From NCBI GenBank assembly GCA_001803165.1, contig MHAZ01000004.1, positions 141,241 to 205,240 of the forward strand: a stretch of 64,000 nt of DNA. Reading direction: 5' to 3'. Under the pieces are notes generated by a model, which saw only the letters and a list, made by a program, of their open reading frames with translations, was not told the origin of the DNA and made no database searches. Every line of letters starts with the position of its first letter. The first letter of the stretch is position 1. Positions 62,934-64,000 of the stretch are shown here, piece after piece. The DNA comes from Stygiobacter sp. RIFOXYC2_FULL_38_25 (GTDB lineage: Bacteria; Bacteroidota; Ignavibacteria; Ignavibacteriales; Melioribacteraceae). Position numbers and translations under genes: made by a program.

Positions 62934-62962
62934 TTGACAACTCATTTTTCTGAAGCTATCTT
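62934..62962 (+). promoter_or_regulatory. Sigma-70-type promoter of the metY leader
   Basis: TTGACA (62934-62939) and TATCTT (62957-62962) are separated by exactly 17 nt. Transcription would begin near 62969, about 13 nt before the first leader ATG and about 360 nt before metY. Confidence 0.78.
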
Positions 62963-62981
62963 CGCAACAGAAATTAAGACA

Positions 62982-63080
62982 ATGAAAAACACAGTTAAAA
63001 ATATCGCCCCGAAGAACAACATCATGATGGCTATGATGTGTATGATGATTTCGTTAAATACGAAGGGCGAAGCGATATAA
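62982..63080 (+). CDS. Methionine-rich leader peptide 1
   Basis: A 32-codon frame encodes a peptide with a lysine- and asparagine-rich start and the core NIMMAMMCMMISL: six Met codons lie in codons 15-22 (63024-63047), seven in all. It is followed directly by a terminator and lies upstream of the methionine gene metY. Its last codons (TACGAAGGGCGAAGCG region) contain GAAGGGC, the antiterminator strand. The design equals that of classic amino-acid leader peptides, with Met as the sensed residue. It is too short for a functional protein and has no family match. The ribosome site is weak (TTAAGAC). Confidence 0.82.
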   Translation: MKNTVKNIAPKNNIMMAMMCMMISLNTKGEAI

Positions 63081-63136
63081 CTTCACTAAGATAATTAAAC
63101 TAAGCCCTTCTTGAGAAATCTTGAAGGGCTTTTTTG
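63062..63136 (+). promoter_or_regulatory. Attenuator 1: antiterminator/terminator of the metY leader
   Basis: Terminator: AAGCCCTTC (63102-63110) pairs with GAAGGGCTT (63123-63131), followed by a run of T to 63135. Antiterminator: GAAGGGC at 63062-63068, inside leader peptide 1, can pair with GCCCTTC at 63104-63110 instead. A ribosome stalled at Met codons 15-22 leaves 63062-63068 free, so the terminator cannot form; a ribosome that reaches the stop at 63078-63080 covers it, so the terminator forms. Confidence 0.82.
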
Positions 63137-63148
63137 TTATAGGCAATT

Positions 63149-63244
63149 ATGAACGGAAAAATCAAAATACTAAGCTGTACTAACATGATGCGAATGATGA
63201 TGCTCATGATGGAAATGCTTTACCCTTTCCGTGAAGAGTCTTGA
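63149..63244 (+). CDS. Methionine-rich leader peptide 2
   Basis: A 31-codon frame begins 13 nt after the U-tract of terminator 1 and encodes NMMRMMMLMMEML at codons 12-24, with eight Met in codons 13-23 and nine in total. It ends TGA at 63242-63244. The sequence is unrelated to leader peptide 1 outside the Met cluster, which indicates selection for Met codons rather than recent duplication. It is followed by a second terminator and then metY. Confidence 0.82.
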   Translation: MNGKIKILSCTNMMRMMMLMMEMLYPFREES

Positions 63245-63302
63245 TCGTTCACAAAGAAATTTAAACATCAAGCCCTTTACGGAAATACCGGAAGGGCTTT
63301 TT
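63229..63302 (+). promoter_or_regulatory. Attenuator 2: antiterminator/terminator of the metY leader
   Basis: Terminator: AAGCCCTTT-A-CGG (63270-63282) pairs with CCGGAAGGGCTT (63288-63299), followed by TTTTT. Antiterminator: CCGTGAAG at 63229-63236, in the last codons of leader peptide 2, pairs with CTTTACGG at 63275-63282 over eight bases (one G.U). The two pairings exclude each other, as in attenuator 1. Confidence 0.82.
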
Positions 63303-63329
63303 AATATTGATTAATCACAAGGAGAATAT

Positions 63330-64000
63330 ATGAGCAGCACAAATAACTACCGTTTTGAAACTTTGCAGTTACATGCCGGACACACACCGGATAGCACAAC
63401 AAACTCACGCGCGGTACCGATTTACCAAACATCCTCTTACACATTTAACGATGCAGACCACGCCGCTAATCTGTTCGGGTTAAAAGAGTTTGGAAACATT
63501 TATACAAGAATTATGAATCCAACTACAGCAGTGTTTGAAGAGAGAGTAGCAAAATTAGAAGGCGGTGTCGCGGCGCTTGCTGTTGCATCGGGACACGCTG
63601 CACAATTCTTAACAATCTCTACAATTGCCGAAGCCGGAGATAATATTGTTTCAACAAGTTTTCTTTACGGCGGCACATACAATCAGTTCAAAGTTACTTT
63701 TCCACGTCTTGGCATAAATGTAAAGTTCGTAGCCACCAATAATCCGGAAGATTATGAAGCGGCAATTGATGAAAAAACCAAAGCGCTTTACATAGAAACA
63801 ATCGGCAACCCCGGCTTAAACATTCCCAACATCAAAAAATTTGCAGACCTCGCTCACAAACACAATATTCCTCTAATCGTAGATAATACTTTCGGCGCCG
63901 GCGGATTTATTGTTCGTCCAATTGAACATGGTGCCGATATTGTTGTTGAATCCGCAACTAAATGGATTGGCGGTCACGGCACATCAATCGGCGGAGTTAT
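63330..64000 (+). CDS. metY: O-acetylhomoserine sulfhydrylase (partial, right edge)
   Basis: The first 223 residues are in the window. The N-terminus [72 protein letters not shown] is typical of the PLP-dependent Cys/Met metabolism family, MetY branch. The PLP lysine is K211 in [12 protein letters not shown]. It makes homocysteine (or methionine) from O-acetylhomoserine and sulfide or methanethiol. AAGGAG lies 6 nt upstream of the ATG. Expression appears to be set by two tandem Met-codon attenuators upstream. Confidence 0.95.

Follow-up and report, generated by a model that had tools for sequence, protein, structure and literature searches.

Serial methionine-codon leader units upstream of metY in Ignavibacteria: candidate transcription attenuators with a possibly exchangeable second position

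Two short open reading frames (ORFs) rich in methionine codons, each followed by an intrinsic-terminator-like hairpin, lie in series upstream of metY at the end of the window, the whole 64,000-nt stretch of Stygiobacter DNA that was analyzed. We interpret them as ribosome-mediated transcription attenuators that would let polymerase pass when charged tRNA-Met is scarce, the second unit probably being a copy placed where relatives carry a SAM-I riboswitch. Based on the sequence comparisons and folding calculations below, we put the probability of this reading at roughly 0.87. Methionine biosynthesis is usually considered to be controlled by SAM riboswitches, T-boxes, or repressors.

Results

Two leader units separate a promoter-like site from metY

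A sequence-only reading had described two complete, consecutive attenuation units between a promoter and metY, and all of their parts were found in place:

62892..62905, no strand assigned: ArgR-box-like palindrome CGCATAATTATGCA, located 5' of the metY promoter
62934..62962, + strand: predicted promoter-like TTGACA-17-TATCTT
62982..63080, + strand: leader ORF 1, 32 aa, MKNTVKNIAPKNNIMMAMMCMMISLNTKGEAI, with the Met run MMAMMCMM at 63024-63047
63062..63068, + strand: core GAAGGGC of antiterminator strand 1, formed by the last codons of ORF 1 and complementary to the 5' arm of terminator 1
63102..63135, + strand: intrinsic-terminator-like hairpin 1, AAGCCCTTC / GAAGGGCTT plus six T, from a hairpin scan
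63149..63244, + strand: leader ORF 2, 31 aa, MNGKIKILSCTNMMRMMMLMMEMLYPFREES, with the Met run MMRMMMLMMEM at 63185-63217
63225..63243, + strand: antiterminator strand 2, CTTTCCGTGAAGAGTCTTG, the end of ORF 2, complementary to the 5' arm of terminator 2
63270..63302, + strand: intrinsic-terminator-like hairpin 2, AAGCCCTTTACGG / CCGGAAGGGCTT plus a T run, from a hairpin scan
63319..63324, + strand: ribosome-binding-site-like AAGGAG 5' of metY (sequence)
63330..63998, + strand: metY, encoding O-acetylhomoserine sulfhydrylase (best family TIGR01326), cut by the contig end

The window ends within metY since the contig ends there; the 223 amino acids present matched TIGR01326 with an E-value of 3.4e-105 and 352 bits, the cut-off of 495 applying to the whole protein. 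The methionine-codon core of both ORFs was unique in the window: among 1149 ORFs of at least 15 aa on both strands, only ORF 1 and ORF 2 contained at least 5 Met per 12 codons (ORF 1 being extended in this count to an in-frame ATG at 62901, 5' of the promoter). The hairpins begin 21 or 25 nt past the stop codon, and folding of the region 62969-63320 was 4.7 sd better than that of shuffled sequence. A first terminator scan missed both hairpins, probably since its rules do not allow a 12-nt loop or a bulge; two later scans found both.

The proposed TTGACA-17-TATCTT is present. Promoter-like matches in this region were no rarer than chance (2 found, 4.7 expected from shuffles), but TTGACA followed by a TAnnTTTGC/TTCGC-like element was seen by eye 5' of leader 1 in 9 of 11 tandem loci; in the other 2, L004 and L023, the inspected stretch starts too late to judge. 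Within the window promoter, TATCTTCGC is similar to a Bacteroidota-type -7 element.

The palindrome further upstream, which we take to resemble an ARG box, is possibly a second control layer over metY. The same genome encodes an ArgR-family protein (G000:C21:631544, PF01316, E 1.6e-20), and TGNATAATTATNCA before metY showed 0-1 mismatches in the 4 loci read from the genus and at least 2 in the other 11 Met-unit loci tested. Similar palindromes were observed 5' of ilvD, of the gene for the glutamate synthase large subunit, and of a homocitrate/isopropylmalate-synthase-like gene; a fourth gene with such a palindrome upstream was assigned by eye as aspS (L033, L034, L036, and L037 for the four genes).

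ORF ends are complementary to terminator arms

In both window units, the pairing of the ORF end with the terminator 5' arm and the pairing of the terminator itself are mutually exclusive by sequence. The stretch from -42 nt to +6 nt around each ORF end was compared with the 5' arm plus loop of its terminator, using 200 shuffles each and uncorrected p values. The predicted duplexes reached -19.0 kcal/mol (z -4.5) in unit 1 and -16.1 kcal/mol (z -3.9) in unit 2, with 0 of 200 shuffles as low in either case, which agrees with the proposed location of the antiterminator in the last codons of the ORFs. Among 52 distinct units from the metY upstream regions surveyed below, the pairing beat shuffles at p ≤ 0.05 in 44 and at p ≤ 0.01 in 30, both window units passing; 8 missed p ≤ 0.05.

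The pairing partners also mostly change together across lineages. When partners were permuted over all units, 0 of 5000 permutations were as good as the native combination, and arms of other sequence (GCCCTCC, GCCGTTCTCAC, GCCACTC) were accompanied by changed ORF ends. In L062, all three strands were altered together (GGAGGGC / GCCCTCC / GGAGGGC). For 13 of the 16 units with an arm other than GCCCTTC, at most 4 of 36 foreign ORF ends paired equally well, against 9-13 of 36 for the other 3, which have GCCCTTT arms and include window unit 2; over all units, the native partner ranked within the lowest tenth of its row in just 25 of 52. Covariation was slight in the close family, where each of two analyses found 1 pair with two-sided changes, a number often equaled by shuffles, because the arms there are nearly invariant. 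Within-family covariation was therefore rejected as proof of structure in favor of the cross-lineage comparison.

Folding predicts a switch that depends on ribosome position

Alternative pairings were modeled by folding the RNA downstream of a ribosome set either at the stop codon or within the Met run. With the 3' arm still unmade, the 5' arm was sequestered with a mean probability of 0.70 with the ribosome stalled in the run versus 0.08 at the stop codon, part of this contrast reflecting the smaller amount of free RNA with the ribosome at the stop; the stalled value was the higher one in 52 of 52 units. With the ribosome stalled, shuffled ORF ends still yielded 0.43; in 25 of 52 units, 38 or more of 40 shuffles were outdone by the native end.

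Once the 3' arm was included, the terminator won at equilibrium in most units even with the ribosome stalled (mean 0.84; 0.95 for window unit 1 and 0.14 for unit 2). Read-through would therefore have to be kinetic, as antitermination is in trp attenuation.

In free RNA, the antiterminator reached probabilities of 0.76 and 0.88 in the two window units. Since the arm is sequestered in both, the textbook shut-off of an untranslated operon is not apparent, and free-RNA folding found no 1:2 hairpin of that kind in the window units. In our view, this hairpin is a feature of the textbook case and does not define every attenuator. A difference between Met and His units in untranslated read-through was considered and rejected: the mean antiterminator probability was 0.48 for the 52 Met/Cys units and 0.43 for 27 His leaders (p 0.39).

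Leader units and SAM-I riboswitches alternate among family metY loci

Of the family's 79 genomes, 46 have metY. We read 44 distinct loci (one fetched twice), leaving out G068, with metY at a contig edge, and G002, which lacks upstream DNA. Two Met-rich leader ORFs were found in 13 of the 44 (L003, L004, L005, L007, L008, L010, L013, L014, L015, L023, L030, L031, and L062), with a terminator for 25 of their 26 leader ORFs, and a single Met unit in 2, both from the genus of the window (L006, L009). Seven carried one Met/Cys-rich ORF followed by SAM-I (L017, L019, L020, L021, L051, L053, L055; the L021 leader attains just 4 of 12 Met/Cys codons), 21 had SAM-I alone, and one (L060, 231 nt read) had neither. 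Serial Met pairs, as first noticed in the window, thus recur in the family, but the design is wider than such pairs, since a leader can also precede SAM-I, here and in other lineages. Met codons and complementary strands are kept in related genomes, as the attenuation reading had predicted. In L004, the nearest relative, terminator 1 and leader 2 are 162 nt apart rather than the 17 nt of the window; the approximately 145 nt more contain, by eye, an inverted-repeat-like stretch.

Rfam detected SAM-I in all 28 SAM loci of the family. SAM riboswitches often control methionine genes, and relatives carry SAM-I at the position in question, so that the window region itself might be a metabolite riboswitch, for SAM or another ligand, with incidental ORFs. 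We consider this highly improbable, as no Rfam family attained its cut-off in the window region: neither the SAM-I aptamer (RF00162) nor any other SAM riboswitch fold nor the T-box (RF00230) was found there, and among the amino-acid leaders (His, Trp, Thr, Leu) only His_leader appeared, at 19 bits against a gathering cut-off of 49. SAM-I was likewise absent by Rfam from all 12 Met-unit-only loci scanned (the window, L004-L010, L013-L015, L062), and for L023, L030, and L031 none was seen in a scan of the whole genomes. Moreover, strong conservation in the family alignment falls on the ATG codons, on the GAAGGG strand, and on the terminator. Under strict filters, and with some genomes incomplete, 14 of the 15 Met-unit-only genomes had no SAM-I anywhere; the sole one was in the window's genome, 5' of a cystathionine gamma-synthase/lyase-like gene. 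Conversely, the 21 SAM-I-only loci showed no hidden leaders, their terminator-bearing ORFs never exceeding 2 Met/Cys per 12 codons.

In a quick metY tree of 51 rows, weakly supported and with a root placed by us, the 15 SAM-I-free Met-unit loci fell on one side of a branch with an SH-aLRT of 80. This suggests a single origin of the Met-unit-only loci, after which one unit may have been lost in L006 and L009. Among the second-unit terminators found, 10 of 12 have the GCCCTT arm of the unit-1 type, an arm present in 0 of 25 SAM-I platform terminators (28 loci inspected).

Met/Cys leaders before metY extend beyond the family

The scan was widened to 196 regions upstream of metY, of which 45 belong to the family, 79 are named, and 72 come from other families of the class. 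The named set comprises 79 of the best 80 of 591 relatives, some duplicating unnamed loci; the class set comprises 72 of 73 fetched, metY being present in 128 of 391 class genomes, with further loci left out. Met/Cys ORFs numbered 83, in 67 of the 196 regions. A terminator followed within 90 nt of the stop codon in 57 of the 83, beginning 19-29 nt after the stop in 49 of these, while arbitrary points in the same regions preceded a terminator in 315 of 1732 cases. In 1960 shuffled regions, 12 leader-like Met/Cys ORFs occurred, 1 of them with a terminator; the reverse strand of the 196 regions gave 1 such ORF and 0 terminators. As the ORFs were selected by Met/Cys content, their richness is not independent evidence, whereas terminator and antiterminator are.

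The Met-sensing role proposed for the leaders fits the Met runs of the window, but many relatives intermix Cys and Met codons (MCMCCMC, MCCCCMMM). Family f2 combines an MCCCCMMM leader with SAM-I, family f3 has the leader MWMCMIMM, and family f25 has a MMQMCMMMCCCM leader with the deviating GCCGTTCTCAC arm in its terminator. Leader-plus-SAM-I series also occur outside the family, as in a Calditrichota record (L143, MSMHMEMMM). A Gemmatimonadetes record (L094) has an MCMCMC leader whose pairing was not above shuffles (p 0.25). In three named loci that carry leaders and have long flanks (L064, L065, L078), metX follows metY directly or one gene later.

The 26 Met/Cys ORFs without terminator were mostly Cys-rich tails in Bacteroidetes-type records or family f5, which we left outside this system and did not count. 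By the terminator rules used, none was found either for L030 unit 2, L064/L177, L093 (two), L190, and L201. The Cys-rich ORF tails 5' of metY (e.g., RMRCCCSACCCCC; L107, L110, L114-L117, L121, L128, L129, L135), which had no terminator by these rules, were observed in Hymenobacter, Pedobacter, Cyclobacteriaceae, and other Bacteroidetes records; perhaps they are translational or Rho-dependent cysteine attenuators. The Cys-rich ORFs 5' of metY in family f5 (L100/L231, L219, L222, L223) share a conserved DNG(N/C)SSA tail.

Leader codons follow the pathway

His-rich leaders (at least 4 His per 12 codons, counted without a shuffle control) preceded hisG in 28 of 30 loci read, 27 of them with terminators, and Met/Cys-rich leaders in 0 of the 30. 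The window's genome is included, with a His-run leader and terminator, MNLTIHAHHTHHLNPYRGAGIL (L257, G000:C7 upstream of 138377; set L299-L328). In the same folding calculation, His leaders behaved like the Met units. The window's genome also has a CCC-run leader, MKNITKNSAVVLANNSCCCTPANMMSSEVFV, with a terminator before a cysteine-synthase gene (L174 337-432, minus strand), divergent from a SAM-I-controlled cystathionine-gamma-synthase-like gene. Cys-codon leaders preceded cysK in just 2 of 22 loci read and are therefore not general there. Upstream of ilvD in this genome lies an Ile/Leu/Val-rich leader ORF, EIILLGIINILVLLGIIILF (L002 1371-1526, minus strand), followed by a hairpin without a T run; a U-tract terminator was not found.

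Methionine is the sole amino acid whose codon doubles as a start codon, and the sequence would be compatible with AUG runs that operate at the initiation step, serving as start-codon arrays that hold ribosomes or respond to fMet-tRNA, instead of causing stalls in elongation. We regard this as unlikely: the runs are interrupted in frame by other codons, many relatives mix in Cys as described above, in 44 of 52 units the run is in frame with an ORF end that forms the antiterminator strand, and His leaders of similar design precede hisG. That the same genomes use fitting codons before other genes argues that codon identity follows the pathway and matters rather than AUG as such.

Alternatively, the products of the ORFs might be small Met-rich proteins with an independent function, such as metal binding, the terminators merely ending upstream transcription. 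Met-rich stretches can bind copper, and the genome contains two further Met-rich readings. These two (L255/L256, C6:417.9-418.1 kb) lie in a low-complexity stretch without terminator and were rejected as leaders. The small-protein reading has very little in its favor given that the ORF ends are complementary to a terminator arm, that the peptides vary widely, and that NCBIfam gave no fitting family (one match, E 0.0055, 15.8 bits against a cut-off of 431). In addition, ATGATGNNNATGATG matched the genome 15 times, 4 matches being the two window units, and no other Met leader with a terminator was seen at this spacing. Across 79 genomes, the ATGATGNNNATGATG matches listed and inspected outside metY included no Met leaders. 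Two further candidates were discarded: the own-genome match at C7 is the reverse strand of the His leader before hisG, and L169 has its Met reading on the opposite strand and belongs to a cluster of genes for another pathway.

Discussion

The window units combine a leader ORF of pathway codons, a nearby intrinsic terminator, and an exclusive antiterminator at the ORF end. Classical trp, his, thr, leu, ilv, and phe attenuation shares the short ORF with pathway codons, the exclusive pairings, and the U-tract terminator before a biosynthetic gene; here, the codons are Met (with Cys in relatives), and two units stand in series, or one with SAM-I. The SAM-I riboswitch of relatives exerts terminator-based control at the same position of the same gene but differs in that its aptamer senses SAM without translation. 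Vitreschak and colleagues reportedly predicted attenuators for other amino acids in Bacteroidetes/Chlorobi in 2004, and Canestrari is said to have described the polycysteine leaders of mycobacterial cys operons in 2020.

The sequence-only reading knew of no named system with this design. That holds for a position before metY and for an arrangement in series: among the best-ranked matches in the open-licence PMC literature, there was neither a Met leader attenuator of metY, nor a set of leader peptides sensing amino acids in series, nor a leader peptide in series with SAM-I. It does not hold for methionine leaders altogether, as the nearest case, in PMC8079986, is a predicted metL leader (end CMCRRMCAF) before metNIQ of Streptomyces lividans. 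In common with the present case, it is a short ORF upstream of methionine genes and has Met and Cys close to its end, but it belongs to a transporter operon in Actinobacteria, is single and leaderless, lacks a typical terminator, and is predicted only, in one genome. The accessible text of PMC1262725 treats cysteine leaders and reports no conserved RNA structure before methionine operons in Actinobacteria; the mycobacterial polycysteine leaders of cys operons likewise have runs of a sulfur amino acid codon, but Cys only and no conserved terminator. For the metXZ RNA element of beta-proteobacteria, the consulted portion of PMC4239095 gives a predicted terminator/antiterminator before homocysteine-synthesis genes, but with conserved RNA regions and a pseudoknot and without description of a leader ORF. 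From the parts available, Rfam has His, Trp, Thr, and Leu leaders, with Ile/Val and Phe mentioned (PMC3766115); contiguous riboswitches are covered without the word 'leader' (PMC12452182); two ermB leader peptides are antibiotic-responsive and translational (PMC8274638); and exchanges between RNA sensors are documented as a general phenomenon (PMC2965389). Methionine leaders did not appear in the text available for PMC7366714, PMC6892785, PMC12123629, PMC4833913, or PMC13236596, nor by term in that of PMC1183508.

In the mechanism we propose, ample methionine would bring the ribosome to the stop codon, where it covers the ORF-end strand and the terminator forms. With Met-tRNA short, the ribosome would stall in the Met run, leaving the ORF end to pair with the 5' arm of the terminator. 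In relatives, leaders of this kind would sense cysteine charging as well as that of methionine. Antitermination at unit 1 would admit transcription to unit 2, where the same test would be repeated before metY. Counting against this mechanism, Met starvation also reduces fMet initiation; the sensed amino acid is itself needed to start the sensing ORF.

The second unit would have been copied from the first and placed in the slot held by SAM-I in relatives. Duplication of the peptide unit into the place of the riboswitch appears the simplest history, its direction being one that we infer because of the limited support of the tree and our choice of root. More broadly, we propose, at slightly better than even odds, that metY in Ignavibacteria and their neighbors passes two serial terminators, the first under a Met/Cys leader and the second under an exchangeable element, either SAM-I or a leader copy, and that the peptide unit was duplicated into the riboswitch slot in the lineage of the window. 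After the exchange, both checks would read tRNA charging, instead of one reading SAM.

If true, this would be without an earlier example in the open-licence literature searched, both as a serial leader-peptide attenuator that senses an amino acid and as a series of leader peptide and riboswitch serving one pathway. The mixed loci (leader plus SAM-I, two leaders, SAM-I alone) provide a natural series along which one RNA sensor has apparently given way to another at a single gene, making the gain from stacking two terminators directly measurable. In the lineage of the window, a check on charging plus SAM would have become a squared check on methionine charging.
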